Positions 4,327 to 25,715 of a stretch of 64,000 nt of DNA are shown here, piece after piece; position 1 is the stretch's first letter, and each line of letters begins with the position of its first letter. A program made the translations under genes and the position numbers. This DNA is from Embleya hyalina (lineage in GTDB: Bacteria; Actinomycetota; Actinomycetes; Streptomycetales; Streptomycetaceae): positions 554,651 to 618,650 of the forward strand of contig NZ_BIFH01000013.1 of NCBI RefSeq assembly GCF_003967355.1. The letters run 5' to 3'. The notes beneath the pieces are model-generated. The model worked only from the letters and a program-made list of their open reading frames with translations. It made no database searches and was not told where the DNA came from.

Positions 4327-5808
4327 CTAGATCACCAGGCTCAGCGACGCCGCGACCGCGAAGCCCGCGACCGACAGGACGGTTTCGAGGACCGTCCAGG
4401 ACTTGAGGGTGTCGCGCTCGGAGATGCCGAAGTACTTGGCGACCATCCAGAACCCGCCGTCGTTGACATGGGAGGCGAAGATGGAGCCCGCGGAGATCGC
4501 CATGATGATCAGGGCGAGGTGGGCCTGCGACATGTCCTGACCCTCGACCAGCGGCACGACGATGCCCGAGGTGGCGACGATGGCGACGGTCGCCGAACCC
4601 TGGGCGACGCGCAGGACGACCGAGATCAGCCACGCGAGGACGATGACCGGGAGGCCGACGTTGTCGAAGGTCGTCGCGAGCGCGTTCGCGATACCGGACG
4701 CCTTGAGGACCGCGCCGAAGACCCCGCCCGCGCCCACGACCAGCAGGATGTTGCCGACGGGCTTGAGCGAGGCGGTCGACACCGTTTCGAGGGACTTGCG
4801 GGACCAGCCCCGGCGGATGCCGAGCAGGTAGTACGCGAGGATCAGCGCGATCGTGAGGGCGACGAACGGGTTGCCGAAGAACTCGATGACCGAACGCACG
4901 GTCGACGGGTCGAAGGCGATGGAGGAGAACGTCGCGCCCAGGATCAGGATGAGCGGCGTGCCGATGATGGCGAGCACCGTACCGAGGGCGACGGGCTTCT
5001 CCGGCGGCTCGATGCCCGAGGCGGCCTGCTCGGCGGCTACGGCGGCCTTCGCCTCCGCGGCGGCCTCGACCATGTCGTGCGGGACGTCGACGAAGATGCG
5101 CTTGCCGATCCACGCGGCGTACGCCCAGGCGGCCAGCACGGCGGGGACGCCCACGACGACGCCCATGAGGATGACCCAGCCGAGCGAGACGTCGAAGAGC
5201 CCCGCCGCGGCCACGGGCCCGGGGTGCGGCGGCAGGAACGCGTGGGTCATCGACAGACCGGCGAGCAGTGGCATCGCGTACAACAGGATCGACTTGCCGG
5301 AGCGCTTGGCGGCGGCGTAGACGATCGGCGCCAGCACGAAGATGCCGACGTCGAAGAAGACCGGGATACCGAAGATGAGGCCGGTCAGGCCCATGGCGAG
5401 CGGCGCGCGCTTCTCGCCGAAGAGGTTCAGCAGGCGGGTGCTCAGCACCTCCGCGCCGCCGGACACCTCGAGGATCGCGCCGAGCATCGTGCCCAGGCCG
5501 ATGATGATCGCCACGTGGCCGAGAATGCCGCCCATGCCCGACTCGATGACCGAGACGGCGGCGGACTTCTGGACGGTACCGAAGAGCTCGGTGACGGACA
5601 GCCCCGCGCCGAGGCCGACGGCTATGGAGACCGCGAGCAGCGCGACGAACGGCTGGAGCCTGACCTTGATGATCAGGTAGAGAAGGAGCGCGATGCCGAG
5701 CGTCGCGACGGTCAGCAGGGCGGCCGTGCCGTCGAACAGGAGCAGAAGACCGCCGGTGTGCGGTGGGGACTTGGGGGGCGGCGTCGAAGCCGGCAGCGTG
5801 GACAGCAC
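4327..5808 (-). CDS. GntP-family gluconate/sugar-acid permease
   Basis: About 493 residues and some 12-14 hydrophobic segments. Family hallmarks include GVGAGLSVTELFG-like helices, GLIFGIPVFFDVGIFVLAP and AFLPPHPGPVAAA, characteristic of gluconate:H+ symporters. The GTG at 5808 follows GAGG at 8 nt and is preferred over a GTG at 5859 lacking a ribosome site. It is the last gene of a minus-strand set with RidA, IclR and a KDG-kinase-like protein. In that setting it may import gluconate-like amino-sugar acids such as (N-acetyl)glucosaminate rather than gluconate; that substrate is an inference. Confidence 0.88.
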   Translation of the reverse strand: MLSTLPASTPPPKSPPHTGGLLLLFDGTAALLTVATLGIALLLYLIIKVRLQPFVALLAVSIAVGLGAGLSVTELFGTVQKSAAVSVIESGMGGILGHVAIIIGLGTMLGAILEVSGGAEVLSTRLLNLFGEKRAPLAMGLTGLIFGIPVFFDVGIFVLAPIVYAAAKRSGKSILLYAMPLLAGLSMTHAFLPPHPGPVAAAGLFDVSLGWVILMGVVVGVPAVLAAWAYAAWIGKRIFVDVPHDMVEAAAEAKAAVAAEQAASGIEPPEKPVALGTVLAIIGTPLILILGATFSSIAFDPSTVRSVIEFFGNPFVALTIALILAYYLLGIRRGWSRKSLETVSTASLKPVGNILLVVGAGGVFGAVLKASGIANALATTFDNVGLPVIVLAWLISVVLRVAQGSATVAIVATSGIVVPLVEGQDMSQAHLALIIMAISAGSIFASHVNDGGFWMVAKYFGISERDTLKSWTVLETVLSVAGFAVAASLSLVI

Positions 5809-5924
5809 GGAGGGGACCTCATGGTTTCCGGGCGCGTGGGGCAGGGGGGACCGCGGCACGGCGCCATGGGGGAGGAGGGCGCCGTGCCGTGGGGGACAAC
5901 CGGGAACAATACGGGCAAGAGGTC

Positions 5925-6344
5925 TCAGCCGAGAACGGCGAGCGCGTCGATCTCGATGAGCAGACCCGCGGGGAGGCCGACGTACACGGTGGTACGGGCG
6001 GAGGCGGGCGCGGTCAGACCCTGCTCCTCGAAGTACGCGTTGTAGATCTCGTTCATCTCGGCGAAGTGGCCGGTGTCGGTCAGGTAGACGCGCATCATCA
6101 TCACGTCGTCCCAGCTCGCCCCGCCCTCCTCCAGGATCGCCTTGACGTTGGCGAAGGTCTGGAGGGTCTGCTCGCGCAGGGTCGGACCGGCGGGGGTGGG
6201 CGCCCGGCCCTCGACGGCCGGGAGGAACCCGACCTGACCGGCGACCTGGAGGATGTTGCCCTTGCGCACGCCGTGGGAGAACCGGGCGGGCGGCGCGGTG
6301 TGGGTGGAGGGGGTGATCGCGGTCTTTTCGAGCTTGTCGGTCAT
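5925..6344 (-). CDS. RidA family enamine/imine deaminase
   Basis: 139 residues, the usual length of the YjgF/YER057c/UK114 family. Near the C-terminus it has the ligand-binding arginine in SARTTVYVGLPAG, followed by LIEIDALAVL, as in catalytically active RidA proteins. RidA hydrolyses 2-aminoacrylate and related imines released by PLP dehydratases. Here it sits in the same cluster as a D-serine/D-threonine-dehydratase-like enzyme, so it likely speeds release of ammonia from that enzyme's enamine product. It lies 58 nt downstream of the IclR gene and was probably co-transcribed with it. Confidence 0.9.
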   Translation of the reverse strand: MTDKLEKTAITPSTHTAPPARFSHGVRKGNILQVAGQVGFLPAVEGRAPTPAGPTLREQTLQTFANVKAILEEGGASWDDVMMMRVYLTDTGHFAEMNEIYNAYFEEQGLTAPASARTTVYVGLPAGLLIEIDALAVLG

Positions 6345-6402
6345 GAGCGTGCCTTCCGGGTCGGGGCGGTGACCGTGCGCCTGCGGCGCGGTCGTCGAGC
6401 GG

Positions 6403-7158
6403 TCATCGCGGGGGGTGGGTGGTGCCCGAGTACTCCCGCGTGATGGCGTCGGCGGTGCGGCGTACCAGCGGGAGCAGGGTCAGGAGTTCCTCGGCGGTGA
6501 CGACGACGTTCGGCGCGGAGACCGACATGGCGGCGACGACCAGACCGTCCGCACCGCGGACGGGGGCCGCGATGCAGTTGATGGACTCCTCGTGGCCACC
6601 GAGGTCGGTGGCCCAGCCCTGTTCGCGGACCGTCGCCAGTTCCCTGAGGAACGCGGCGGCGTTCGGTATCGAACGGGACGTGTACATGGGGTAGTCGAGC
6701 CGTTCGGCGACGGCGCGCCGCTCGGGCTCGGGCAGGTCGCCGAGGAGCAGCTTGGCGACGGCGGCGACGGTGATCGCGACCGGCTTGCCGACACGCGAGT
6801 ACATCCGTACCGGGTAGCGGCTCTCGACCTTGTCGATGTAGAGGACCTCGTTCTCCTCGTACACCGCCAGGTGGACGGTGTGCCCGCACTGCTCGTTGAG
6901 CGCGACCAGGTGCGGGTGCGCGATCTCGCGGACGTCGAGGTTCTCGACGGCCTCCTGGGCGAGCGCGAACAGGCGTGCGCCGAGGCGGTAGCGCTGGTCC
7001 TGCTGGCGGTAGACGAGGCCGTGCTCGTGCAGCGTGCGGAGCAGACGCAGGGCGGTGGACTTGTGGACGCCGAGGCGCTCGGCGACCTGTCCGAGATCCG
7101 CGGGCCCCTGGGCCAGCAGCGGCAGGATGCTCAGCGCTCGGTCGACGGTCTGGCTCAT
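6403..7158 (-). CDS. IclR-family transcriptional regulator
   Basis: 251 residues. The winged helix at the N-terminus (RLGVHKSTALRLLRTLHEHGLV) is followed by the IclR effector domain with segments TVHLAVYEENEVLYIDKVES and GGHEESINCIAAPVR. The ATG at 7158 overlaps the kinase stop (ATGA) and is about 10 nt from AGGAGG; an ATG at 7167 is too close to that site. It is the obvious regulator of the divergent 4327-11391 cluster, with palindromes in the control region 8320-8452. The effector is probably a pathway intermediate such as 2-keto-3-deoxygluconate. Confidence 0.9.
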   Translation of the reverse strand: MSQTVDRALSILPLLAQGPADLGQVAERLGVHKSTALRLLRTLHEHGLVYRQQDQRYRLGARLFALAQEAVENLDVREIAHPHLVALNEQCGHTVHLAVYEENEVLYIDKVESRYPVRMYSRVGKPVAITVAAVAKLLLGDLPEPERRAVAERLDYPMYTSRSIPNAAAFLRELATVREQGWATDLGGHEESINCIAAPVRGADGLVVAAMSVSAPNVVVTAEELLTLLPLVRRTADAITREYSGTTHPPR

Positions 7159-8294
7159 GGCGTACATACCTCCTGGTCCGCCCCGGTGGCGGTGGGCTCG
7201 GTCCAGCCGGGGCCGAGACGCAGTCTGCCCCAGGCCTCGTCGTCCAGCGCCGCCAGCCGATCGGCCACGGCGCGCGGCGGCGGGACGGCGAGGTCGCCCG
7301 CGACGGTGAGTGCGGCGGCGGCCATGAGGTGGCCGTGGCGGATGCGCCGGTGGACCGGGAGGCCGCGCAGGGTCGCGGACAGGAACCCGGCCGCGAACGC
7401 GTCGCCCGCGCCGACGGGAGCGGCGATGTCGACGGTGAGGGCCGGCACGAAGACCGACGGCCCGTCGTCGGTGAAGACGGTGGCGCCCGCGCCGCCCTGC
7501 TTGACGACCACGACGCCCGGCTCGGGGAGCGCGGTCCGAATCGCGTGCGCGCCGCGGATGTTCCACGCGGCCTCGGCCTCGTCCTCGCCGACGAAGACCA
7601 GGTCGGCGCCGCGGGCGAGGTCGAGCAGGACGGCGGGCTCGGCGGCCACGCTCCGGCGCTCGTCCCAGAGGTTCACGCGGTAGTTGACGTCGAAGGAGAC
7701 GAGGGGCCGACCGGGCCGGCGACGGGTCGCCTCGCGCAGGAGCGCGAGGCAGTCGTCGGAGAGGGCGGCGGTGATGCCCGAGACGTGCAGGATGCGGCCC
7801 GACCACAGGTCCCGGTCGGGTACGACGCGGGGCGACATGGCGGAGGCGGCGGAACCGGCGCGGTAGTAGACGACCTCCGCGACGGGTTCCGCGGCGGGAT
7901 CGGCCTCCGCCGCGGCTTCGGCGGTGATCGCGACGGCCGAGGCCGCGGTGTGGGGCGCGGCCCGGTCGCCGTCCCCGACGGCCCGTTCGCCCGCCGTGCG
8001 GAAGTAGACGCCGGTCGGACGGAGCCGGTCGCGCCGGACGGCCGACGTGTCGACCCCGTACGCCGCGACCGCCTCGACGAGGTGGTCGCCGAAGCCGTCG
8101 GTGCCGACCCGGCTGAGCCAGCGCGTACGGTGTCCGGCCGCGGCCAGGGCGCACGCCACATTGGATTCGGCGCCGCCTATGCCGCGCTCGAAGGACGGTA
8201 CGTCGGCGAGGCGGCCGGAGCGTGAGGGCACAAACGTGATCATGGACTCGCCGAGGCAGACGACGTCGACGGTTCCTGGTGCGGTCACGCTCAC
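7155..8294 (-). CDS. PfkB-family sugar kinase, 2-keto-3-deoxygluconate-kinase-like
   Basis: 379 residues with the ribokinase fold. The substrate-binding N-terminus (GIGGAESNVACALAAAGHRT) is followed by FDVNYRVNLW, and the C-terminal signature APVGAGDAFAAGFLS carries the catalytic Asp and anion hole. The FDVNYRxxLW element is typical of KDG and fructose-type kinases. The GTG at 8294 lies 11 nt from AGGAG, with a second GTG at 8288. The kinase opens the minus-strand operon and overlaps iclR by 4 nt. An acidic insertion near residues 135-165 is longer than usual. Its likely role is to phosphorylate KDG made by the divergent dehydratase. Confidence 0.85.
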   Translation of the reverse strand: MSVTAPGTVDVVCLGESMITFVPSRSGRLADVPSFERGIGGAESNVACALAAAGHRTRWLSRVGTDGFGDHLVEAVAAYGVDTSAVRRDRLRPTGVYFRTAGERAVGDGDRAAPHTAASAVAITAEAAAEADPAAEPVAEVVYYRAGSAASAMSPRVVPDRDLWSGRILHVSGITAALSDDCLALLREATRRRPGRPLVSFDVNYRVNLWDERRSVAAEPAVLLDLARGADLVFVGEDEAEAAWNIRGAHAIRTALPEPGVVVVKQGGAGATVFTDDGPSVFVPALTVDIAAPVGAGDAFAAGFLSATLRGLPVHRRIRHGHLMAAAALTVAGDLAVPPPRAVADRLAALDDEAWGRLRLGPGWTEPTATGADQEVCTP

Positions 8295-8319
8295 GATCGC
8301 TCGGGCTCCTGGTTCATCG

Positions 8320-8336
8320 GATGATCGAAGATCATC
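8320..8336. promoter_or_regulatory. Inverted repeat in divergent control region
   Basis: GATGATC (8320-8326) and GATCATC (8330-8336) are exact inverted arms with a 3-nt spacer, just upstream of the kinase start. A candidate operator for the minus-strand operon. Confidence 0.45.
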
Positions 8337-8380
8337 GGGCGGTCGCATCCGCCTCGTCGACGGCCGCGCGACGCCGACCA

Positions 8381-8452
8381 TTGACCCGGCGTTGGCTCGG
8401 ATGTTAGACAGCACCGAGCGATATACGCAATGGCCGTTGCACAGGATGCAAC
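8381..8452 (+). promoter_or_regulatory. Promoter and IclR-type palindrome before the dehydratase
   Basis: TTGACC at 8381-8386 and TTAGAC at 8404-8409 (17-nt spacer) resemble a housekeeping promoter, though the -10 is weak. Downstream, GTTGCA (8436-8441) and TGCAAC (8447-8452) form an exact palindrome with a 5-nt spacer near the expected transcript start, a position suited to repression. A partial third half-site (GCAA) is at about 8427-8430. Confidence 0.5.
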
Positions 8453-8471
8453 GATGACTCCGGAGGTGCCC

Positions 8472-9761
8472 ATGGCTGCCGACAACGCCGTCGGACGGCT
8501 CGCCAAGCTCGCGGACGAGCGTGTCGACCACCGTTTCAAGGCCCTGCCACCGGACGCCGAGGGCCTGACCGTCGGCGAACTGGCCGCCGAGCGCCGCAAC
8601 CTGTTCACCGGCGGCTTCACCACGCCGGTCCTGGCCCTGTCCGCCGAATCCGTCGAGCACAACCTCGCCCTGATGGAGACGTACGCGCGACGGCACGGCC
8701 TGGCGTTCGCCCCGCACGGCAAGACGTCGATGGCCCCGCAGTTGTTCGCCCGCCAACTCGAGCACGGCGCGTGGGGCATCACGGTGGCCGTCCCGCACCA
8801 GGCCCGGGTCGCCCGCGCGTTCGGCGTCCCGCGGATCTTCCTCGCCAACGAGGTGGTCGACGCGGCGGCGCTGCGCTGGTTGGCCGCCGAACTGGACGCC
8901 GACCCGGACTTCCGGTTCCTCTGCTACGTCGACTCCGTGCGCGGCGTCGCGCTGATGGACGCCGCGCTGCGCGCCGCCGGGGCACGCCGCCCGGTCGACG
9001 TGGTCGTCGAACTCGCGGCGGGCGAGGGCGCCCGCACCGGAGCCCGCACCGAGAGCGAGTGCGGCGAGATCGCCGACGCGGTCGCCGCCTCCCCGGTCCT
9101 GCGCCTGGCGGGCGTCGCCGGCTACGAGGGCGAGGTGCCGCGGGCCGACGGCGATCGGGTGCGCGCGTGGCTGCGCCGACTGACGTCCCTGGCCGCCGAG
9201 TTCGACAAGCAGGGCCGCTTCGAGCAGCTCGACGAAATCGTGGTCAGCGCGGGTGGCAGCGCCTGGTTCGACGCGGTGGCCGACGTCTTCGCCGAGCTTC
9301 CCGCCCTGTCCCGCCCGGCCCTGAGACTGCTGCGCTCCGGAGCGTACGTCTCGCACGACGACGGCCACTATCGCCACATCACGCCGTTCAACCGGGTCCC
9401 CGACGAGGGCGCCCTCCAGCCGGCCTTCCGGCTGTGGGCCCAGGTCGTCTCCCGCCCGTCCGCGACGCAGGCGTTCGTCAACGCCGGCAAGCGCGACGCC
9501 GCCTACGACCTCGACCTGCCCGAGGCACAGGTCGTGCGCTCCGCGCGCGACGGCTCGGTGCGTCCGGCCACCGGCATCGCCGTCACCGGCCTCTCCGACC
9601 AGCACGGCTGGGTCACGACCGACGCCGGCGCCGAGTTGGAGGTGGGCGACTGGCTCGGCATGGGCCTGTCGCACCCCTGTACCTCCTTCGACAAATGGCA
9701 GCTGATCCCGTTGGTCGCCGCCGACGGCACCGTGACCGACTACATCCACACCCTGTTCTAG
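8472..9761 (+). CDS. D-serine/D-threonine dehydratase-like PLP enzyme (amino acid deaminase)
   Basis: 429 residues of the alanine-racemase-fold group that includes eukaryotic D-serine dehydratase and D-threonine aldolase. FTTPVLALSAESVEHNLALM leads into the PLP lysine region APHGKTSMAPQLFARQL (about residues 75-92). The C-terminus GLSHPCTSFDKWQLIPLV carries the His/Cys pair that binds metal in this group. The ATG at 8472 sits 5 nt from GGAGG; ATGs at 8430 and 8454 are worse placed. It would eliminate water and ammonia from a D-configured 2-amino-3-hydroxy acid. D-glucosaminate has exactly that configuration, which would yield 2-keto-3-deoxygluconate. The deacylase gene follows after 10 nt. 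Confidence 0.85.
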   Translation: MAADNAVGRLAKLADERVDHRFKALPPDAEGLTVGELAAERRNLFTGGFTTPVLALSAESVEHNLALMETYARRHGLAFAPHGKTSMAPQLFARQLEHGAWGITVAVPHQARVARAFGVPRIFLANEVVDAAALRWLAAELDADPDFRFLCYVDSVRGVALMDAALRAAGARRPVDVVVELAAGEGARTGARTESECGEIADAVAASPVLRLAGVAGYEGEVPRADGDRVRAWLRRLTSLAAEFDKQGRFEQLDEIVVSAGGSAWFDAVADVFAELPALSRPALRLLRSGAYVSHDDGHYRHITPFNRVPDEGALQPAFRLWAQVVSRPSATQAFVNAGKRDAAYDLDLPEAQVVRSARDGSVRPATGIAVTGLSDQHGWVTTDAGAELEVGDWLGMGLSHPCTSFDKWQLIPLVAADGTVTDYIHTLF

Positions 9762-9771
9762 GAGCCGTCGC

Positions 9772-11391
9772 ATGGACCTCGTCATTCGCGATGCACGCGT
9801 CGTCGACGGCGCCGGTGGCGCGTCCTACCGGGCCGATGTGGGTCTGGACGGCGGTCGGATCAGCGAGATCCGGCGTGCGGGCGGTCCCCGGCTGTCCGGC
9901 CGGCGCACCCTCGACGCGGGCGGCCTCGCGCTCTCGCCCGGCTTCATCGACATGCACGCGCACAGCGACCTCGCGCTGCTGCGCGACCCGGACCACTTCG
10001 CCAAGGCCGCACAGGGGGTGACGCTCGAAGTCCTCGGCCAGGACGGGCTGTCGTACGCGCCCGTCGACGACCGCACGCTCGCCGAGGTGCGCAGCTCGAT
10101 CACCGGCTGGAACGGCGACGGTTCCGACATCGACTTCGACTGGCGCACCGTCGGCGGCTACCTCGACCGCCTCGACCGGAACTTCGGCGGGCAGGGCATC
10201 GCGGTCAACGCGGCCTACCTCATCCCGCAGGGCACGCTGCGCATGTACGCCATGGGGTGGGACGGCCGGCCCGCGACCGACACCGAACTCGCGCGGATGA
10301 AACAGCTCGTCGCCGAGGGCATGGAACAGGGCGCGGTCGGCATGTCGTCCGGGCTCACCTACACGCCCGGGATGTACGCGGACGACGCCGAACTCGCCGA
10401 ACTGTGCCGCGTCGTCGCCCGATACGACGGCTACTACTGCCCACACCACCGCTCGTACGGAGCCGGGGCGCTGCAGGCGTACGAGGAGATGGTGCGGCTC
10501 ACGAAGGCGGCCGGCTGCGCGCTCCACCTGGCCCACGCCACGATGAACTTCGGCGTGAACAAGGGCAGGGCCCCCGACCTCCTGGCCCTGCTCGACGCGG
10601 CGCTGGACGACGGTTGCGACATCTCGCTCGACACGTATCCCTACACACCCGGCTGTACGACGCTCGTCGCCGTGCTGCCGAGTTGGGCGAACGAGGGCGG
10701 CCCCGAAGCGACCCTGGCCCGGCTCCGGGACGACGCCACGGCCGAGCGGATCCGCCACCACCTGGAGGAGATCGGCTCCGACGGCTGCCACGGTGTCCCC
10801 ATCGAATGGGACACGATTGAAATGTCCGGTATCACCGACCCGGAGCTGGAAGCCTATGTGGGCCGGACCGTCGCGCACAGCGCCGCCGAGCGCGGCGAGG
10901 AACCGTGGGTCACCGCCCGACGCCTGCTGATCGGCGACCGGCTCGGCTCGACGATCCTCCAGCACGTCGGACACGAGGAGAACGTCCGGCGGATCATGCG
11001 CCATCGGGTCCACACCGGCGGCAGCGACGGAATCCTTCAGGGGGACAAGCCACACCCGCGCGCGTACGGCACCTTCCCGCAGTATCTCGGCCGGTACGTC
11101 CGCGAGTTGGGGGTCCTGGGCCTGGAGGAGTGCGTGGCGCACCTGACCTCGCGTCCGGCGGCCCGACTGCGCCTGCCCGACCGGGGTCTGGTCCGCGAGG
11201 GATACCGCGCCGACCTGGTCCTGTTCGACCCGGACACGGTCGCGGCCGGCTCGACGTTCGAAAACCCACGCGTGCCGCCCACGGGAATCCCGCACGTGTT
11301 GATCGACGGCAGGTTCGTCATCGAGGACGGCCGGCGCACGAACACCCTCGCCGGAAAGGCGATCCGCCGAACCCCGACGGCCGCCGCCTAG
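9772..11391 (+). CDS. N-acyl-D-amino-acid deacylase family amidohydrolase
   Basis: 539 residues of the amidohydrolase superfamily, D-aminoacylase branch. Metal ligands appear in GFIDMHAHSDLALL (about residues 60-73), in the HHRSYG and HLAHATMNFG strands, and in HTGGSDGI around residue 416. The length matches the family. It would remove the acyl group from an N-acyl-D-amino acid, here plausibly acetate from N-acetyl-D-glucosaminate before the upstream dehydratase acts. The ATG follows AGGAG, 10 nt after the dehydratase stop, so the two form an operon. A strong hairpin pair follows. Confidence 0.88.
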   Translation: MDLVIRDARVVDGAGGASYRADVGLDGGRISEIRRAGGPRLSGRRTLDAGGLALSPGFIDMHAHSDLALLRDPDHFAKAAQGVTLEVLGQDGLSYAPVDDRTLAEVRSSITGWNGDGSDIDFDWRTVGGYLDRLDRNFGGQGIAVNAAYLIPQGTLRMYAMGWDGRPATDTELARMKQLVAEGMEQGAVGMSSGLTYTPGMYADDAELAELCRVVARYDGYYCPHHRSYGAGALQAYEEMVRLTKAAGCALHLAHATMNFGVNKGRAPDLLALLDAALDDGCDISLDTYPYTPGCTTLVAVLPSWANEGGPEATLARLRDDATAERIRHHLEEIGSDGCHGVPIEWDTIEMSGITDPELEAYVGRTVAHSAAERGEEPWVTARRLLIGDRLGSTILQHVGHEENVRRIMRHRVHTGGSDGILQGDKPHPRAYGTFPQYLGRYVRELGVLGLEECVAHLTSRPAARLRLPDRGLVREGYRADLVLFDPDTVAAGSTFENPRVPPTGIPHVLIDGRFVIEDGRRTNTLAGKAIRRTPTAAA

Positions 11392-15894: not shown

Positions 15895-17856
15895 ATGCGC
15901 AATCGATGGTCCGACGCGGACGCCGGCGACGGTCCCCTGGGGCAGTGCGCCTACGGTTCACGGCTGATCGGCGGCGAACCCACACTCGTGCTGCACGGCG
16001 GCGGCAACACCTCGGTGAAGGCCGAGATCGCCGATGTCACCGGCGCGCCGGTCGAGGTGCTCTACGTCAAGGGCAGCGGCCACGACCTGGCCTCGATCGG
16101 CCCCGAGGGGTTCGCCCCGCTGCGCCTGGCCCGGCTGCGCGAACTGCTCACCGTCACCGCGCTCAGCGATGCCCAGATGGTCAACGAACTGCGCTGCGCG
16201 CTGCTCGACGCGTCCGCCCCCGACCCCTCCGTCGAGGCGCTGCTGCACGCGATGTTGCCGCACCGCGCGGTACAACACAGCCACGCCGACGCGATCCTGA
16301 CCCTGACCAACCTCGCCGACGGCGAGGCGGTGATCCGCGACGTGTTCGGCGACGACGTCGCGATCGTCCCGTACGTGATGCCCGGGTTCGACCTCGCCGT
16401 ACGCTGCGCCGAGGTGTGGCGCGACCGGGCACACGCCGGGACCATCGGCCTCGTACTGCTCAACCACGGCCTGTTCACCTTCGGCGACGACACCCGCGAG
16501 GCGTACGAGCGCCACCTGGACCTGATCACCCGCGCCGAGCGCCGGCTGGCCGAACACAACGCCCCCGCGCCTGCCCCCGCCCCCGCGCGGGCGCGCCCGA
16601 CGAGCGCCGAACTCGCCCTGCTGCGGCGGGAGATCAGCGAGGCCGCGGGCCGGCCGATGATCGTCGCCCGGCACGCCGACGAGGACACGGCGAGGTTCGT
16701 CGCGCGGGCCGACCTGGCCGAGGTCGCGACCAGGGGCCCGGCGACCCCCGACCACGTCATCCGCACCAAACGGGTGCCGCTGGTGGGTCGCGACGTGGCC
16801 GGCTACGCCGACCGCTACCGGGAGTACTTCGAACGCCATCACCGGCGTCGCGGCACCGAGTTGAAGCCGCTGGATCCGGCGCCGAGGATCGTTCTGGACC
16901 CCGACCTGGGCATGCTCACGGTCGGCGGCAGCGCCAAGGACACCGACGTCGCCCGCGACATCTACCGGCACACGATGGACGTGATCACCGCCGGCGAACG
17001 CCTCGGCGGCTACCGGCCCGCGTCCGAGGAGCACATCTTCGACCTCGAATACTGGGACCTGGAGCAGGCCAAACTGCGCCGGGCCGGGGCGCCGCAGGCG
17101 TTCGCCGGCGAGGTCGCGCTGGTCACCGGGGCCGCGTCGGGCATCGGCAGGGCGTGCGCACGGGCCCTGGCGGCGGCCGGCGCGAGCGTCGTCGGCTGGG
17201 ACCTCGACGCCGGCGTCACGCGGACCCTCCCGGGAGCCGGATACCTCGGGCAGGTCGTGGACGTCACCGACCGCGCCGCCGTGGAGAGCGCGCTGCGGGC
17301 CGCCGTCGAGCGCTTCGGCGGCCTCGACATGGTGGTCGCGAGCGCGGGCGTGTTCAAGGCGGGCGCGCCGATCTCGGCGCTGGACGCCGACGCGTGGCGC
17401 ACCTCGATGGCGGTCAACGTGGACTCCGTCGCCGTCCTGTTCCGTGAGACCCACCCGCTGCTCGCGCTCGCCCCGCGCGGCGGCCGGGTGGTGGTGATCG
17501 CGTCCCGCAACGTGCCCGCGCCCGGGCCGGGCGCGGCCGCCTACTCGGCGTCCAAGGCGGCCGTCACGCAGCTGTCCAGGGTGGCCGCGCTGGAATGGGC
17601 CGCCGACGGCATCAGGGTCAACGTGGTGCACCCGGACGCGGTCTTCGACACCGGCCTGTGGACCGAGGAGGTCCTGGCCAAGCGGGCCGCCGACTACGGC
17701 ATGACGGTCGAGGAGTACAAGCGGCGCAACCTGCTGCGTACCGAGGTGAGCAGCACCACCGTGGCGCAGGCGGTCACCCGGCTGTGCTCCGACGACTTCG
17801 CCGCGACCACGGGTGCGCAGATCCCCGTCGACGGAGGCAGCGAACGGGTCGTGTGA
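15895..17856 (+). CDS. Bifunctional class II aldolase / short-chain dehydrogenase
   Basis: 653 residues. Residues 1-340 are a class II (zinc) aldolase with the catalytic Glu in PSVEALLH and metal His residues in QHSHAD and LLNHGLF. Residues about 400-653 are a complete SDR with VTGAASGIG, a Ser region near VIASRN, AYSASKAA and a VDGGSERVV end. This is the RhaD/RhaE-type architecture, where a sugar-1-phosphate is split into DHAP plus an aldehyde and the aldehyde is then oxidised or reduced. In this regulon the aldehyde could be acetaldehyde or methylthioacetaldehyde rather than lactaldehyde. It has its own promoter with a GntR site. Confidence 0.88.
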   Translation: MRNRWSDADAGDGPLGQCAYGSRLIGGEPTLVLHGGGNTSVKAEIADVTGAPVEVLYVKGSGHDLASIGPEGFAPLRLARLRELLTVTALSDAQMVNELRCALLDASAPDPSVEALLHAMLPHRAVQHSHADAILTLTNLADGEAVIRDVFGDDVAIVPYVMPGFDLAVRCAEVWRDRAHAGTIGLVLLNHGLFTFGDDTREAYERHLDLITRAERRLAEHNAPAPAPAPARARPTSAELALLRREISEAAGRPMIVARHADEDTARFVARADLAEVATRGPATPDHVIRTKRVPLVGRDVAGYADRYREYFERHHRRRGTELKPLDPAPRIVLDPDLGMLTVGGSAKDTDVARDIYRHTMDVITAGERLGGYRPASEEHIFDLEYWDLEQAKLRRAGAPQAFAGEVALVTGAASGIGRACARALAAAGASVVGWDLDAGVTRTLPGAGYLGQVVDVTDRAAVESALRAAVERFGGLDMVVASAGVFKAGAPISALDADAWRTSMAVNVDSVAVLFRETHPLLALAPRGGRVVVIASRNVPAPGPGAAAYSASKAAVTQLSRVAALEWAADGIRVNVVHPDAVFDTGLWTEEVLAKRAADYGMTVEEYKRRNLLRTEVSSTTVAQAVTRLCSDDFAATTGAQIPVDGGSERVV

Positions 17857-18025: not shown

Positions 18026-18757
18026 TCAGGCCGTGCGTACCAGCTGGAACTCGTAGGAGCCCTCGACGAAATAGGTCTTGCAGTACGCGAGCAGCCGGTG
18101 GTCGTCGTCGTAGTGCAGCTGGTCGAGCAGCACGAACAGGCGGTGTTTGGCCGCGTCCGGACCCCACGCGATGTGCGCCGACGAGACGGCGTGCACCTTC
18201 GCGAGGCCGAGCGTCGGATGGATGCCCAACTCGGTTTCGAAATAGGCGAACAACGACCCGCTCAGCTCCTCCGGATCGAACGCGGCCGGCAGCAGGCCGC
18301 GGGGGATCACGTCGTAGGAGTAGGCGACCACGTCGCCGTCGGCGGTCACCCGGCGGCGTAGTTCCAGCGCCTCGGTGTCGGACGGCACGCCCATGCGTTC
18401 GGCCTCGTCGGGCAGCACCTGGCGCAGCGTGCGCCGCCCGTACTCGTGCCCGGGCTCCTTGCCGCTGCGCCGGATCGACTCGGTGATCGAGCCCATGCGC
18501 TCCAGGCCGTCGCGTACCGCGGGGCGGGTGCGCACGAACGTGCCCGCGCCCTGCTGGGTGCGGATCAGGCCGAGCACGTCGAGTTCCTTGAGCGCGGTGC
18601 GCACCGTGGCCCGCGAGACCCCGAACCGCCTGCACAGATCGGCCTCGGTCGGCAACCGTGCCCCCGCGGGATGGACGCCGTCGCGGATCTCGATCTTGAG
18701 TTCCCGAACGATGTCGTCGGCCAGCGGCCGCCGTGTCTGGGTCGCCATGTCGGACAT
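18026..18757 (-). CDS. GntR-family (HutC/UTRA) regulator
   Basis: 243 residues. The GntR winged helix is clear (PTEADLCRRFGVSRATVRTALKEL reduced here to its core RRFGVSRATVRTALKELDVL), followed by a UTRA effector domain from about residue 95. The start may be the ATG at 18757 or at 18748. It lies between two transcription units for methylthioribose-type sugar use, and identical operators lie on both promoters, so it is most likely the local repressor, relieved by a sugar phosphate. Confidence 0.88.
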   Translation of the reverse strand: MSDMATQTRRPLADDIVRELKIEIRDGVHPAGARLPTEADLCRRFGVSRATVRTALKELDVLGLIRTQQGAGTFVRTRPAVRDGLERMGSITESIRRSGKEPGHEYGRRTLRQVLPDEAERMGVPSDTEALELRRRVTADGDVVAYSYDVIPRGLLPAAFDPEELSGSLFAYFETELGIHPTLGLAKVHAVSSAHIAWGPDAAKHRLFVLLDQLHYDDDHRLLAYCKTYFVEGSYEFQLVRTA

Positions 18758-18758
18758 C

Positions 18759-18787
18759 TTGACACGCTTCGAATTGTCTGACAACTT
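18759..18787 (+). promoter_or_regulatory. Promoter with GntR operator before mtnA
   Basis: TTGACA (18759-18764) is a consensus -35 box; CAACTT (18782-18787) at 17 nt is a weak -10. The palindrome TTGTCTGACAA (18774-18784) fills the spacer and touches the -10, a repressor arrangement. It is also close to the divergent gntR start, so autoregulation is likely. Confidence 0.6.
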
Positions 18788-18862
18788 CGGCGCACTCGGA
18801 TCATGAGGACGGCCCCCGGAGGCATCGACGGGTCGTCCCACGAAGAGACGGAGACGCGGCGG

Positions 18863-19933
18863 ATGCGCACGATCGACTGGATTCCCGCCGACGACGCCGA
18901 GCGGGAACCCGGCAGGGGATTCATCAGGCTGGTCGACCAAACCCTGCTGCCCGACAGCCTCGTCGAACTCGACATCCACGACCTCGACGTCCTGGTGGAC
19001 GCGATCCAACGACTCGCGGTACGCGGAGCCCCCGCGCTCGGCGTGGCCGGCGCCCTGGGCGTCGCGCTCGCCGCGCAGAACCTGCCGGCCGACCTGGCCC
19101 GGCAGGCCATCGCCGAACTGCGCGAGGCCCGGCCCACGGCGGTCAACCTGGCCTACGGCGTGGACACCGCGCTCGCCGCCCTGGAGCGCGGCGGCGCGCT
19201 CGCCGCCCTGGAGGCCGCGCTGCGGGTACGGGACGCGGACATCGCGGCCTGCGTCGCGATGGCCGAACGCGGTACCGACGCGCTGACGCGGTTGATCCCG
19301 GACCGGGCCGCGCTGACCGTACTGACCATCTGCAACACCGGCGCGCTCGCCGCCGTCGAGCACGGCACGGCGCTCGGCGTGGTGGCGAAGCTGCACCGCG
19401 ACGGCCGACTGGTGCGCGCCATCGCGTGCGAGACGCGGCCACTGCTCCAGGGCGCCCGGCTGACCGCGTGGGAACTGGGCCGCATGGGCGCGTCGTACGA
19501 CGTGATCGTGGACTCGGCCGCGGCGATCACGCTGGCCCGAGGTGGCGTCGACGCGGTGCTGGTGGGCGCCGACCGGATCGCCGCCAACGGCGACACCGCC
19601 AACAAGATCGGCACGTTCGCGGTGGCCCTGGCCGCGGCCCGGGCCGGGGTGCCGTTCCTCGTGGTCGCCCCCGAGACCACGATCGACCCGGCCACCCCGA
19701 ACGGCGACGCGATCGAGATCGAGGATCGCGGCGGCGCCGAGGTCCGCTTCTTCCGCGGTGTACGGGTCACCCCGCCCGACGCCACCGCCCTCAATCCCGC
19801 CTTCGATGTGACGCCCGCCGACCTGATCACGGCGATCGTCACCGACGCGCGCGTCATCGACGTCGTCGCGGGCGACACCCCCGCGAGCGACACCCCCGCG
19901 GCCCGGCCGGTCGCGGCCGAGACCACCGAGTGA
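18863..19933 (+). CDS. mtnA: S-methyl-5-thioribose-1-phosphate isomerase (MtnA family)
   Basis: 356 residues. The catalytic cysteine is in TICNTGALA (about residue 155) and the catalytic aspartate in VGADRIAANGDTANKIGTF (about residue 235), both hallmarks of the aldose-1-phosphate isomerase MtnA, separate from eIF2B. It converts methylthioribose-1-P or 5-deoxyribose-1-P to the ribulose form. The ATG at 18863 is chosen for the match to the family N-terminus (TIDWIPAD); an upstream ATG at 18803 is in frame. It begins an operon of six genes with short gaps or overlaps. Confidence 0.9.
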   Translation: MRTIDWIPADDAEREPGRGFIRLVDQTLLPDSLVELDIHDLDVLVDAIQRLAVRGAPALGVAGALGVALAAQNLPADLARQAIAELREARPTAVNLAYGVDTALAALERGGALAALEAALRVRDADIAACVAMAERGTDALTRLIPDRAALTVLTICNTGALAAVEHGTALGVVAKLHRDGRLVRAIACETRPLLQGARLTAWELGRMGASYDVIVDSAAAITLARGGVDAVLVGADRIAANGDTANKIGTFAVALAAARAGVPFLVVAPETTIDPATPNGDAIEIEDRGGAEVRFFRGVRVTPPDATALNPAFDVTPADLITAIVTDARVIDVVAGDTPASDTPAARPVAAETTE

Positions 19934-19943
19934 GGAGAACACC

Positions 19944-21086
19944 ATGAGATCCAAGGCCATTCGCGTGATCGGGGCCGCCGCCGTCGGAATGTCCCTGCTC
20001 GCCGCATGCTCGCAGAGCACCGACGACAACAAGGCGGAGCCCGGCGCGTCCGGCGCCGCCGGCGGCGCCGGCAACTGCGCGACCCAGCGCACCGTCGACA
20101 ACGCGCGCAAGCTGCCCGAGGCCAAGCCCGCCGGGCTGAGGGGCGACTTCAAGGTGGCGCTCGTCCGCCAATCCGGCGTCGGCGACTACTTCGAACAGTG
20201 GGGCGACGGCGCGACCAAGCAGATCAAGGCCGCCGGCGGCAGCGTCACCGTCTACGACGCGCGGGGCAACAACGCGACCCAGGTCAGCCAACTCGACCAG
20301 GCCATCAACGCCAAACCCGACGTGATCATCGTCGACCACGGCCTCGCCGACTCGGTCAACCCCAAGATCGACGACGCGATCGCCAAGGGGATTCCGGTCG
20401 TCGTCTACGACGTGGCGATATCCAACTGCAAGGCCACCTACATCTCGCAGGACGACGCCTCGATCGCCGACAAGATCCTCGGCTACATGAAGCAGGACAA
20501 CCCCTCGGGCGGCAAGCTTGCCTACGTCAACGTGTCCGGCATCGCGCCGCTCGACTCCCGCGACAAGGTGTACCAGCAGTTCCTCAAGGACAACCCGACG
20601 TTCACGCAGAAGGCGCGCTTCGGCAAGTACACCGAGTCGGTCGCGGCCGACACCGCCACCGAGGGCACCGCGGCGCTGTCCGCCGCCCCGGACACCACGC
20701 TCGCCTTCGCCGCCTACGACGAACTCGCCAAGGGCACGCTGATCGCGCTGCGCCAGAACGGCATGACGAACAAGGTGAAGGTCTACGGCGTGGACGTCTC
20801 CACCGCCGACATCCAGCTGATGACCGAGGCCGGCAGCCCGTGGCGGGCCACCGCCGCCACCGATCCGGCGAACGTGGGCGCGGTCGTGGCCCGGGCCTCG
20901 ATCGCGGCGGCCGGGAAGGTCGACCTGCCGCAGAAGATGACCATCCCCGCGACCCTGATCACCCAGGACACGCTCAAGGCGAACGGCGTGACGAACATGG
21001 ACACGCTGCGCAAGGCGCTGCCCGAACTGGCCACCCCGGACGTGCTCGGGGCACCGTGGATCACCGCGATCCGGCCGGGCGCCTGA
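19944..21086 (+). CDS. Sugar ABC transporter substrate-binding lipoprotein (RbsB-like)
   Basis: 380 residues. A signal peptide ends in the lipobox LLAAC (Cys near residue 21), anchoring it outside the membrane. The body follows the periplasmic-binding type I fold (FKVALVRQSGVGDYFEQWGDG, and the VSGIAPLDSRDKVYQQFL hinge region). It lies 10 nt after mtnA and before an ABC ATPase and permease of ribose type. It probably delivers methylthioribose or 5-deoxyribose; the ligand is inferred from context only. Confidence 0.88.
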   Translation: MRSKAIRVIGAAAVGMSLLAACSQSTDDNKAEPGASGAAGGAGNCATQRTVDNARKLPEAKPAGLRGDFKVALVRQSGVGDYFEQWGDGATKQIKAAGGSVTVYDARGNNATQVSQLDQAINAKPDVIIVDHGLADSVNPKIDDAIAKGIPVVVYDVAISNCKATYISQDDASIADKILGYMKQDNPSGGKLAYVNVSGIAPLDSRDKVYQQFLKDNPTFTQKARFGKYTESVAADTATEGTAALSAAPDTTLAFAAYDELAKGTLIALRQNGMTNKVKVYGVDVSTADIQLMTEAGSPWRATAATDPANVGAVVARASIAAAGKVDLPQKMTIPATLITQDTLKANGVTNMDTLRKALPELATPDVLGAPWITAIRPGA

Positions 21087-21120
21087 CCCACCCTCGGTCG
21101 AAACCGGAAAGGAGGCACCC

Positions 21121-22740
21121 GTGCAGCCCCGACAAGACGACGGACGCGAAGACCGCCGAGACCGCCGCCGGGACACCGTCCTCGAAGTGCGGGACATCTC
21201 GAAGAGCTACGGCCCGAACCGGGTGCTGCGCGGGGTCGGCCTCCGCATCGGCGCGGGTGACATCTACGGCCTGATGGGCGCCAACGGCGCGGGCAAGTCC
21301 ACGCTCATCAAGATTCTTTCGGGCGCGGAGTCCCCGGACGGCGGCGAGATCCTGCGCGACGGCGAGGTGGTGGTCTTCCCCGACCCGCTCGCCGCCCAGC
21401 GCAGCGGCATCGGCACCGTGCACCAGAACCCCAACGACGGGGTGATCCTCGACATGACGGTCGCGGAGAACCTGGCCCTGGACCGGCTCGGCGACCGATC
21501 CTCGCCCATCCTGTTCAGCCGGCGCCGGACCGAGGCCCAGGCCGTCGAGGTCGCGGCCACCCTGGGCCTGCGCTTCGACCGGCAGACGTTGCGCTCGCCG
21601 GTGCGCGACGTGGGCGTCTCCGAGCGGCAACTCCTGGTCCTGGCCCGGGCGTTGTCCCGCAAACCCAGGCTGCTGATCCTGGACGAACCCACTTCGGCGC
21701 TGTCCGCGGAGGAGAGCGCGCGCCTGTTCGACCTGGTGCGCGCGCTCGCCGCGGACGGCATGACCGTCCTGTTCGTCACCCACAAACTCGCCGAGATCGA
21801 CCAACTGTGCGACCGCGTCGGCGTGCTGCGCGACGGGGCCATGCAGGGCGAGTTCGAGCCCGTACCCGGGCGGGGGTTCGACTGGACGACCGTGCTGACC
21901 GCCCTGTTCGACCGCACCCCGGCCGAGTCCGAACGCGCCGAACTCCCGCCGGGGGAGCCGGTATTGGCGCTCGAAGGGGTCCGCCTGCGGGAGGACGACC
22001 CGCACTCCCTCGACCTCGAACTGCACCGCGGCCATGTGACCGTGCTGCTCGGTCTGCTCGGCAGCGGCAAGACCGAACTGCTCGAATGGATCTTCGGCGC
22101 CACGTCGATCGGCGCGGGCCGGCGAACCCTCGACGGGCGCCCCTTCGACCCCGGGTATCCGGGCGCCGCGATCAAACGCGGCGTCTACCTCGTCCCCGAA
22201 TCCCGGCACGAACAGGCGATCATCCCCGGCTGGCCGATCCGCTCCCAACTCACCCTGCCCTTCGCGAGCACGTTCACCCGGGGCACCCTGATGCGCACCG
22301 GCGCCGAACGTCGGGCCACCGCAACGATGATGCGCGACCTCGGCGTGGTGGCCGCCGGACCCGACGCGCCGATCGAGACCCTGTCCGGCGGAAACCAGCA
22401 GAAGGTGGTCATCGGCCGCTGGCTGCTCGGCGAACCGCGGGTACTGCTGCTCGACGAACCGTTCCGCGGCGTCGACATCAACGCCCGCCACGACATCGGC
22501 GCGACCGTCCGCGAACTCGCCGCGACCGCCGCGGTCCTGGTCGCCACCTCCGACGTGGACGAGGCCCTCGAGGTCGGCGACCGCATCGTGGTGCTCGACC
22601 GGGGCCGGATCACCGCCGACCTCGCCCTGGGCGACGCCGGCCGCGACCGCCTCATCGCGGCGATGAGCGTGCGCCGTACCCCGTCACCACCGCCCTCGGA
22701 GGCCGCGCCGAGCGCAGCCGGAAAGGAAAGCCACGCATGA
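21121..22740 (+). CDS. Sugar ABC transporter ATP-binding protein with two ABC domains (RbsA-like)
   Basis: 539 residues with tandem nucleotide-binding domains. The first has Walker A GANGAGKST (about residue 53) and Walker B LLILDEPTSAL. The second has a degenerate Walker A GLLGSGKTEL (about residue 315), a signature TLSGGNQQKV and Walker B LLLDEPFRGVD. This is the carbohydrate-uptake CUT2 layout. The GTG start follows AAAGGAGG. The stop overlaps the permease start (ATGA). Confidence 0.92.
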   Translation: MQPRQDDGREDRRDRRRDTVLEVRDISKSYGPNRVLRGVGLRIGAGDIYGLMGANGAGKSTLIKILSGAESPDGGEILRDGEVVVFPDPLAAQRSGIGTVHQNPNDGVILDMTVAENLALDRLGDRSSPILFSRRRTEAQAVEVAATLGLRFDRQTLRSPVRDVGVSERQLLVLARALSRKPRLLILDEPTSALSAEESARLFDLVRALAADGMTVLFVTHKLAEIDQLCDRVGVLRDGAMQGEFEPVPGRGFDWTTVLTALFDRTPAESERAELPPGEPVLALEGVRLREDDPHSLDLELHRGHVTVLLGLLGSGKTELLEWIFGATSIGAGRRTLDGRPFDPGYPGAAIKRGVYLVPESRHEQAIIPGWPIRSQLTLPFASTFTRGTLMRTGAERRATATMMRDLGVVAAGPDAPIETLSGGNQQKVVIGRWLLGEPRVLLLDEPFRGVDINARHDIGATVRELAATAAVLVATSDVDEALEVGDRIVVLDRGRITADLALGDAGRDRLIAAMSVRRTPSPPPSEAAPSAAGKESHA

Positions 22741-23876
22741 ATCTGCGCGACTCGACATCGACCGCGCGGCGGACCCCGCTTCCGGCCGCGTTCCCGGCCG
22801 CGCTCGGCGACTTCGTGGTCCGCTACGGGATCATCCTGGTGGGCGTCACGCTCTACATCGCGTTCTCCGCCACCACGACGGGCTTCGGCACCTGGGACAA
22901 CACGGTGTCGATCCTGCAGATCCAGGCGGTCGCGGCGATCGCCGCGCTCGGGATGACGCTGACCGCCATCGTCGGCGACCTCGACCTGTCGGTCGGCGCG
23001 GTCACCGGCCTGTCGGTCACCGTGGCCGCCGAGGCGATGATCCACTACGAACTCACCGGCCCGAGCGCGATCGTGATCTGCCTCCTGGTCGGCCTGCTCG
23101 TCGGATGTGTCAATGCCACCCTCATCGTGTTCCTGAACATCCCGCCGCTGCTCGCCACCCTCGGCACCATGTTCACCATCCAGGGCCTCAAACGCTGGCT
23201 CGTCGACGGTCAGACCCTGACCACCGGCATGAAGCTCGGCGACGGCACCGTGGTCAAGGGCAGGTTCACCGACGACTTCACCGCCATCGACGGCGACAAG
23301 CTGTTCGGCATCCCCTACTCCGTCTACCTCTTCCTGGTCATCGCCCTGCTGTTGTGGGTCTTCCTGCAACGCACCCGCCACGGGCGGGTGTTCTACGCCG
23401 TCGGCGGCAACGAGGAGGCCGCGCGCCTGGCCGGAACCCGGGTCAAGCGCTACAAGTTCGCCGCCTACGCCATCTCCGGCGTACTCGCCGCCACCGCAGG
23501 CATCATCCTCGCCTCGCGCCTGCGGCAGGGCGATGTCACCGCGGGCGATTCCTCGCTGCTCGACGCGGTCGCCATGACTCTGGTCGGCTACGCGGTCCTG
23601 GGCGCCAAGAAGCCCAACGCGCTCGGCACGTTCGTCGGCGCGGTGTTCATCGGGCTGATCCTCCAGGGCCTCACCATGCGCGGACTGCCCTACTACACGC
23701 AGGACTTGATCAAGGGGCTCGTGCTCATCTTCGCCCTGCTGATGTCCTTCTCCCTACGCCGCGGCCGGCGCCGCCGGGCCGTCGCGGCGACACCCGCCTC
23801 CGCCGACCCGAGCACCGGCACCGGCGCCGATGTCCCCACCACCGCACCGGCGATCGCGGAGAGCACCCATGGCTGA
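22737..23876 (+). CDS. Sugar ABC transporter permease (RbsC-like)
   Basis: 379 residues with about 8-10 membrane segments. Family motifs are LTAIVGDLDLSVGAVTGLS near residue 80 and the cytoplasmic loop GGNEEAARLAGTRV typical of CUT2 permeases. The ATG at 22737 overlaps the ATPase stop by 4 nt and follows GGAAAGGA. The C-terminal 35 residues are a polar tail rich in Ala/Thr/Pro. The stop overlaps the kinase start by 8 nt, so the genes are tightly coupled. Confidence 0.9.
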   Translation: MNLRDSTSTARRTPLPAAFPAALGDFVVRYGIILVGVTLYIAFSATTTGFGTWDNTVSILQIQAVAAIAALGMTLTAIVGDLDLSVGAVTGLSVTVAAEAMIHYELTGPSAIVICLLVGLLVGCVNATLIVFLNIPPLLATLGTMFTIQGLKRWLVDGQTLTTGMKLGDGTVVKGRFTDDFTAIDGDKLFGIPYSVYLFLVIALLLWVFLQRTRHGRVFYAVGGNEEAARLAGTRVKRYKFAAYAISGVLAATAGIILASRLRQGDVTAGDSSLLDAVAMTLVGYAVLGAKKPNALGTFVGAVFIGLILQGLTMRGLPYYTQDLIKGLVLIFALLMSFSLRRGRRRRAVAATPASADPSTGTGADVPTTAPAIAESTHG

Positions 23877-25086: not shown

Positions 25087-25715
25087 CGGCAGAGCACATC
25101 CTCGCCGCCCTGGTCGACGCGGGCCGACAGTGCGTGGACAGCGGCCTCGTCCTTGCGAGCGGCGGCAACCTGTCCGCCCGGCTGCCCGGCACCGACACCT
25201 TCGCGGTGACGGCTGCCGGCAGTCGGCTCGACCGGCTGACCGAACGGGACTTCGCGATCGTGCGCCTCGACGGCGAGCCGCGCGCGGGCACGGATGCGGC
25301 GACACCGTCCAGCGAATGGCGCCTGCACCGACACACCTACCTGGCCCGACCCGACGTCGAGGCGGTGGTGCACGTCCACCCCGAATACGCGGTGCTCGTC
25401 GACGCCATGGGCGAGCGCATCCGCCAACTCACCCTCGACCACGTCGCCTACGCCCCCGTCATCACCCGCGTGCCGTTCCACCCCAACGGCTCCCTCGAAC
25501 TGGCCGAAGCCACGGCGGCCGCGACCCGCCACAGCGACTGCGTGGTCCTCGCCCACCACGGCTGCTCCACGGTGGGCACATCCCCCCAGGACGCGCTACG
25601 CAAGGCCCAAAACCTGGAAAGCGCCGCCCGCTACACCTACCGCCTACTCACCCTCGGCAACCACACCACCGAATTCCCCCAACCCGCCCGCACATCGGCA
25701 ACCCAACACCACTGA
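25083..25715 (+). CDS. Class II aldolase (DrdA/MtnB/FucA-like)
   Basis: 210 residues. The active-site Glu lies in TPSSEWRLH and zinc His residues in VVHVHPEY and VLAHHGCS, as in fuculose-phosphate aldolase and 5-deoxyribulose-1-P aldolases. Start at 25083, overlapping mtnK by 4 nt (ATGA). It would cleave methylthioribulose-1-P or 5-deoxyribulose-1-P to DHAP and an aldehyde, unlike the MtnB dehydratase of the classical methionine salvage route; no other Mtn enzymes are encoded nearby, which favours the aldolase route. Confidence 0.85.
   Translation: MTAEHILAALVDAGRQCVDSGLVLASGGNLSARLPGTDTFAVTAAGSRLDRLTERDFAIVRLDGEPRAGTDAATPSSEWRLHRHTYLARPDVEAVVHVHPEYAVLVDAMGERIRQLTLDHVAYAPVITRVPFHPNGSLELAEATAAATRHSDCVVLAHHGCSTVGTSPQDALRKAQNLESAARYTYRLLTLGNHTTEFPQPARTSATQHH

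Follow-up and report, generated by a model that had tools for sequence, protein, structure and literature searches.

A gene cluster of Embleya hyalina as the probable core of an actinobacterial regulon for N-acetyl-D-glucosaminate

Six genes in two divergent units

The genome assembly of Embleya hyalina comprises 12.05 Mb in 78 contigs, and the stretch analysed here (the window) covers 64,000 nucleotides of contig NZ_BIFH01000013.1, positions 554,651 to 618,650. At window positions 4327-11391, six genes form two divergent units, with genes for a GntP permease, a RidA protein, an IclR regulator and a kinase on the minus strand, and genes for a dehydratase and an amidohydrolase (hereafter the deacylase) on the plus strand. 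A sequence-only reading had tentatively assigned them to the breakdown of N-acetyl-D-glucosaminate (GlcNAc1A), the C1-oxidised end of chitin. Pfam, NCBIfam and the translations place every gene family it named where it had put it, and its single IclR regulator, for which it gave no coordinates, was located as well. The features are as follows:

4327-5808 (5859 is an earlier possible start), minus strand: GntP-family permease (PF02447, E 5.6e-126)
5925-6344, minus strand: RidA-family enamine/imine deaminase (PF01042, E 2.9e-25; TIGR00004 under its cut-off)
6403-7158 (alternative start 7167), minus strand: IclR-family regulator (PF01614 and PF09339, over cut-off)
7155-8294, minus strand: PfkB-family kinase (PF00294, E 3.2e-44)
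8436-8452, between kinase and dehydratase: palindrome GTTGCACAGGATGCAAC, proposed as the IclR operator from its conservation and placement
8472-9761, plus strand: fold-type-III pyridoxal phosphate (PLP) dehydratase, D-serine-dehydratase-like (PF14031, E 5.6e-19; PF01168)
9772-11391, plus strand: amidohydrolase of the GQDG subfamily (PF07969, E 3.2e-48)

The permease scores 383.5 bits with TIGR00791 (cut-off 292.75) and is thus a member of the GntP gluconate:H+ symporter family. When started at 7158, the IclR gene overlaps the kinase stop. The kinase had been called a 2-keto-3-deoxygluconate (KDG) type; its PfkB family membership stands, but with the best NCBIfam model, that of KDG/2-keto-3-deoxygalactonate (KDGal) kinase, it reaches 169.5 bits against a cut-off of 400, so the KDG level of the assignment does not. 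For the dehydratase, the longest reading frame begins at 8430, but GGAGGTG lies directly before the ATG at 8472, which favours the latter start. Its two domains, together with the HGKT and SHPC motifs, identify it as a D-serine-dehydratase-like PLP enzyme. Both motifs are invariant in the dehydratase alignment (A2), and we take them to be the PLP lysine motif and the His/Cys metal motif of such enzymes. The nearest solved chain is 3gwq, a 'D-serine deaminase' (E 1.7e-77), while the relatives of the deacylase in the PDB are solved D-aminoacylases and PpOngB. An Rfam search of the window gave no match, and no DasR dre site was found in it with up to three mismatches to the consensus.

Distribution, gene neighbourhoods and co-inheritance

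The order was sampled with 147 genomes, of which 132 belong to the family of E. hyalina (f1), 14 to family f3 and one to family f2. A deacylase at E <= 1e-100 is present in 141 of them (128 of 132 in f1, 13 of 14 in f3 and none in f2). This distribution was drawn from a separate genome search, because a scan of a named collection returned almost only Streptomyces among its best 80 loci (79 so titled, and one '[Kitasatospora] papulosa'). Of these best 80, 60 Streptomyces loci exceed 19 kb in length; the dehydratase is found in 59 of them, RidA in 59, IclR in 60, the kinase in 57 and GntP in 52. The conservation of the cluster is far beyond chance and extends to almost the whole family, so that it is not the speciality of one chitin degrader. 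In a phylum-wide draw, a Tsukamurella deacylase query at E <= 1e-130 matched 15 of 396 genomes (12 of f1 and three others). In family f10, a query combining the deacylase with a GH20 hexosaminidase matched 37 of 299 genomes at E <= 1e-120; by a list read by eye, 21 of these match the deacylase part and the remainder GH20.

In several lineages the cluster adjoins a gene for the aldolase that cleaves 2-keto-3-deoxygluconate 6-phosphate (KDPG). It follows the deacylase in 8/8 fetched f3 loci by tblastn (7/8 as called reading frames), and three of these eight have a lactonase (PF10282) next to RidA; a lactonase is also found near the cluster in f10 loci. A Tsukamurella plasmid (L098) is annotated with the groups RidA-IclR-sugar kinase and alanine racemase-D-aminoacylase-KDPG aldolase-gluconate:H+ symporter, and locus L185 has the identical gene order, KDPG aldolase included. 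By similarity, 20 f10 loci contain the aldolase in nine cases and a separate kinase in eight, and at L236:8899-11652 the deacylase and a PfkB kinase are joined in one reading frame of 917 residues.

These neighbours could also be expected of plain sugar-acid metabolism, in which gluconate or uronates are converted to KDG and the deacylase and dehydratase are accidental neighbours. GntP, the PfkB kinase and the aldolase would suit it, as would locus L222, where UxaC, mannitol-dehydrogenase-type and mandelate-racemase-type genes adjoin the cluster; the same L222 genes would fit a shared KDG pool. However, it is the deacylase and dehydratase that stay together most constantly, in 36/36 f1 loci compared with 19 for the kinase and 13 for GntP, and we regard this explanation as extremely improbable.

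A second line of evidence leads from the proposed use of GlcNAc1A to GH20. At L186 (genome G395, single contig), one reading frame with no internal stop encodes deacylase and GH20 hexosaminidase together, as a protein of 1060 amino acids (PF00728, E 3.1e-90). Its neighbours are genes for the dehydratase, RidA, two ROK proteins (a repressor and a kinase) and nagB, the last over the TIGR00502 cut-off. An intact fusion was seen in G395 alone: G741 carries the two parts at the ends of two contigs, and in G784 (L219:8557-11082) a GH20 reading frame retains only a C-terminal deacylase remnant, with no dehydratase seen nearby; close to this frame lies a glmS-like gene whose product has SIS and glutamine-amidotransferase domains. 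L226 contains a weaker GH20-like frame (PF00728, E 6.2e-08) that overlaps the dehydratase end. The genome of E. hyalina itself has a second dehydratase (47% identical to that of the window), grouped with genes for RidA, an IclR protein and a PfkB kinase; this set and a sugar-ABC/GH20 operon point away from each other:

G000:C15 about 65300-74400 (L300:11319-12734, L295:850-8408), divergent from the sugar-ABC/GH20 operon: second dehydratase/kinase/RidA/IclR set

The third line of evidence is the co-inheritance of kinase and aldolase, scored at E <= 1e-40 for the cluster kinase and E <= 1e-60 for the aldolase (PF01081). In f1, the kinase is present in 114 and a strong aldolase in 112 of 132 genomes, and the aldolase occurs in 112 of the 114 genomes with the kinase versus 0 of the 18 without it. 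The two exceptions are G064, whose cluster (L069) has no kinase gene, and G109, which has no deacylase match. The co-occurrence concerns the strong type of aldolase, as weaker PF01081 paralogues occur in 15 of the 20 f1 genomes without it. At L065:3355-5066, G064 has a further PfkB kinase grouped with a weaker KDPG-aldolase homologue and with genes resembling those for dehydrogenases and transporters. A careful tree of 63 loci shows six changes of the kinase state, and 6/6 independent pairs match the aldolase state (sign test, p 0.031), with the aldolase state copied from the kinase state, both being identical in all 59 rows. On a quick tree, 3/3 independent pairs on well supported branches agree (p 0.25).

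In the 11 genomes inspected, the f1 aldolase stands alone beside yaaA and an RNase H/phosphatase fusion (neighbours named by eye). Against the 2-dehydro-3-deoxy-phosphogluconate aldolase model (cut-off 320) this aldolase reaches 282.9 bits, and against the phosphogalactonate aldolase model 102.7. The edd gene (TIGR01196, E <= 1e-100) was found in one of the 147 genomes, that of the window, where eda comes after two genes identified by eye as edd and glk (an Entner-Doudoroff operon). The available text of PMC7494193 describes the Entner-Doudoroff pathway of S. coelicolor as not complete and names three putative phosphogluconate dehydratase homologues, which fall outside the edd search unless they are close.

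The palindrome and a proposed IclR regulon

Before the dehydratase, the palindrome has the consensus form GTTGC-N7-GCAAC. Its relaxed form RTTGC-N7-GCAAY was counted in 119 of 141 regions upstream of the dehydratase, or in 117 of 139 after removal of duplicates (the region of f1 locus L071 equals that of L107, S. flavidovirens, and the region of f1 locus L086 that of L142, S. lateritius), and has 0 occurrences elsewhere in the 2.6 Mb of the same loci. By group, it is present in the window's own region (1/1), in 101/109 of f1, 8/8 of f3, 2/2 of the Mycobacteriales type and 5/19 of f10. The stand-alone aldolase gene has the palindrome as well, 5-139 bp ahead of its called start in 11/11 loci; none precedes the G064 aldolase. 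In 11 of the 13 deacylase-bearing Streptomyces genomes examined, a third site precedes a GH20 gene or a sugar-ABC/GH20 operon, in the strict form in nine (L267-L274, L281) and in the relaxed form in two (L297, L298); for five of these genes Pfam confirmed GH20 (E <= 2.5e-113). Over 16 genomes, the strict palindrome occurs 0-4 times per genome versus 0-2 times for a control pattern. In the window's genome, five 3.5-kb loci with its AA10 genes contain no palindrome.

Conservation and placement suggest that the IclR protein of the cluster binds the palindrome and controls a regulon through it. In Streptomyces, this regulon would join three sites: the core cluster, the KDPG aldolase gene that stands alone, and the genes that would import chitobionate-type oligomers and cleave them by GH20. 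Palindrome-type sites also lie before a different IclR gene (L278:4145, L282:3862, L285:4162), and related IclR proteins may share the half-site.

The proposed route, its alternatives and its relation to the ong pathway

Taken together, we consider it very probable that these genes form the centre of a regulon by which actinobacteria catabolise GlcNAc1A, as left at chitin ends by AA10 lytic polysaccharide monooxygenases (LPMOs). The route would run from GlcNAc1A via glucosaminate, KDG and KDPG to pyruvate and glyceraldehyde-3-phosphate. Oxidised chito-oligosaccharides such as GlcNAc-GlcNAc1A would be taken up through a sugar ABC transporter whose genes lie elsewhere, then cleaved by GH20, presumably in the cytoplasm, while free GlcNAc1A, the likely GntP substrate, would enter by H+ symport. 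The GQDG amidohydrolase, a putative N-acetyl-D-glucosaminate deacetylase, would strip off acetate. From D-glucosaminate, a D-2-amino-3-hydroxy acid, the PLP enzyme would eliminate water and ammonia, with RidA hydrolysing the imine to KDG. The PfkB kinase would then convert KDG to KDPG, and the KDPG aldolase would yield the two end products. This aldolase would come from the stand-alone gene in most sampled Streptomyces, from the gene beside the deacylase in other lineages and from the Entner-Doudoroff operon in the window's genome. The IclR protein would control these steps through GTTGC-N7-GCAAC. The sequence-only reading had drawn the same core route, which has gained support from the aldolase and lactonase neighbours, the GH20 fusion near nagB, the kinase fusion, the joint loss of kinase and aldolase and the common palindrome.

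That reading had also pointed to a pathway of similar logic in chitin-oxidising marine Gammaproteobacteria, and the ong pathway indeed consists of the same reaction types (PMC9537276; this paper and PMC12017989 are cited from the text available to us). The ong cluster of Pseudoalteromonas prydzensis shares enzyme types, and the order in which they are proposed to act, with the actinobacterial loci, namely a D-aminoacylase-like deacetylase, a fold-III PLP deaminase, RidA, a PfkB kinase and GH20, whose member OngA frees GlcNAc1A from GlcNAc-GlcNAc1A; some ong relatives also include a KDPG aldolase (PMC9537276). The regulator differs, being IclR here and MurR/RpiR in the ong cluster, and so does import, by GntP and ABC transporters here and by an SSS symporter and a TonB receptor there. 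In Streptomyces, unlike in ong, GH20 and the aldolase lie at separate loci under the common palindrome. Identity to the ong proteins of Pseudoalteromonas sp. CF6-2 amounts to 28% for the deacylase, 30% for the dehydratase, 28% over 113 residues for the kinase and 24% over 112 for RidA. The published screen covered 2,455 marine and 12,220 terrestrial genomes, required at least four co-occurring genes more than 30% identical to the ong genes of strain ACAM 620, and reported ong clusters in Gammaproteobacteria plus one Achromobacter (PMC9537276). With the CF6-2 proteins standing in for those of ACAM 620, none of the four exceeds this threshold, which would explain why the actinobacterial cluster escaped that screen. 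No paper on GlcNAc1A catabolism in actinobacteria was found in the open-access literature searched, and the main text of PMC9537276 and PMC12017989, as far as available, contains no mention of Streptomyces or Actinobacteria. The pathway is thus of a known, ong-like kind and appears to be a new variant in actinobacteria, well supported although unproven.

Within the amidohydrolase superfamily, the GlcNAc1A deacetylase PpOngB (PMC12017989, PDB 9kb1) and the window's deacylase align in the HxH motif (62, 64), the two histidine ligands His225 and His255 and the catalytic Asp419, at 28-31% identity to the OngB family. PpOngB Cys97, however, is replaced by Asp91, Lys254 by Thr257 and Ser290-291-292 by Gly-Cys-Thr 294-296, and a longer segment stands in place of the Gln298 loop. 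Asp91 substitutes for the metal cysteine in 6/6 sequences of one alignment (A1) and 22/22 of another (A3), in which His225, His255 and Asp419 are invariant. The D-aminoacylases AfDam (1m7j) and BbDam (3gip) are homologous as well (E 2.5e-69 and 1.9e-64) and share with the window's protein a threonine at the Ser292 site, but the latter has GQDG for GNCG, no metal cysteine and no carboxylate-binding lysine. By the features compared, the deacylase falls outside the OngB family and, with aspartate in the Cys/His/His metal site that accompanies the catalytic aspartate, outside the subtype V amidohydrolases (D-aminoacylase/OngB). Specificity for GlcNAc1A has been attributed to Ser292 and Gln298 (PMC12017989); because the window's protein differs at both, these rules neither predict nor exclude such activity. 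An AlphaFold model of the deacylase, based on 22 close sequences, was too poor for active-site claims (mean pLDDT 60, pTM 0.56) and was set aside. The dehydratase shares its domain composition, HGKT and SHPC with the Burkholderia-type 'D-serine deaminase' 3gwq and the OngC family, yet represents a separate lineage, 28-30% identical to one Pseudoalteromonas OngC.

Several observations weigh against the proposed regulon for GlcNAc1A. The deacylase does not have the residues linked to GlcNAc1A specificity in PpOngB. The palindrome is infrequent in the distinct f10 upstream regions, the third site was not found in G001 and G107, and some sites precede another IclR gene beside GMC-type oxidoreductase genes (named by eye). 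In the window's genome, 14 sites versus seven for the control are mostly chance; its own aldolase in the Entner-Doudoroff operon and its GH20 operon have no palindrome, and beyond the cluster site none precedes an evident pathway gene. Furthermore, 16 of the 128 deacylase-bearing f1 genomes score without the cluster kinase, and in all 16 it is absent at the fetched locus; four of these loci (L043, L044, L095, L096, with L095 on a short contig) retain dehydratase and deacylase only.

Such kinase-less clusters would be expected if the genes served a general scavenging of N-acyl-D-amino acids, in which D-serine or D-threonine is freed and converted by the PLP enzyme and RidA to 2-keto acids, with kinase and permease serving something else. 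The PF14031 and D-aminoacylase families agree with this, OngC also acts on D-Ser and D-Thr (PMC9537276), and related dehydratases on Pantoea and Azospirillum plasmids (about 39-41% identical) adjoin amino-acid ABC transporters. It fits poorly, however, with loci that include KDPG aldolase, lactonase, GH20 or nagB, and with the fusions, the joint loss of kinase and aldolase and the shared palindrome, and we consider it quite improbable as a general explanation. In the kinase-less lineages, the whole operon may have decayed into D-amino-acid use.

The link to LPMOs is a separate question. The window's genome has five AA10 genes, and AA10 is present in 145 of the 147 genomes; the two genomes that lack it carry the deacylase, and the six that lack the deacylase all carry AA10. 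In this sample the cluster is therefore not tied to AA10 presence, which also counts against the proposed origin of the substrate. The comparison of cluster and LPMO conservation that the sequence-only reading had proposed could be made but was uninformative as a test, since AA10 is nearly ubiquitous here. The same chemistry might act on N-acetylgalactosaminate or N-acetylmannosaminate, or on GlcNAc1A supplied by an oxidase or dehydrogenase instead of an LPMO. That AA10 does not track the cluster would agree with this, as would the failure of NCBIfam to separate KDG from KDGal kinase here and the absence of any chitin gene in view at the Tsukamurella locus. On the other hand, the company of the fused deacylase (GH20, nagB and a ROK kinase) suggests GlcNAc, and the stand-alone aldolase scores far better as a phosphogluconate than as a phosphogalactonate enzyme; we rate this alternative as improbable.

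Elsewhere in the window, a row of genes at 18026-25715 (GntR-type regulator, MtnA-like IF-2B-family protein, ABC transporter, MtnK-like APH-family kinase and class II aldolase; Pfam for three genes, the others named by eye) looks like a system for methylthioribose or 5-deoxyribose use. At 15988-17856, a class II aldolase domain and a short-chain dehydrogenase domain are joined in one protein, and the product of 44546-46087 partially matches animal haem peroxidase (PF03098, E 1e-14).

Streptomyces rank among the foremost degraders of chitin in soil and among the foremost producers of LPMOs, and the fate of their oxidised chitin ends is not described in the literature that we found. We think it likely that actinobacteria assembled their pathway for oxidised chitin separately from ong, with a new class of GlcNAc1A deacetylase in which aspartate replaces the metal cysteine, a three-site IclR regulon in Streptomyces and an aldolase that is kept without edd mainly for oxidised chitin. 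If true, a cluster carried by 128 of the 132 sampled genomes of the family would gain a function, and the KDPG aldolase retained without edd would gain a role. The annotations 'D-aminoacylase', 'alanine racemase' and 'sugar kinase' would acquire a common and testable meaning, and the short operator could be used to find more members of the regulon.

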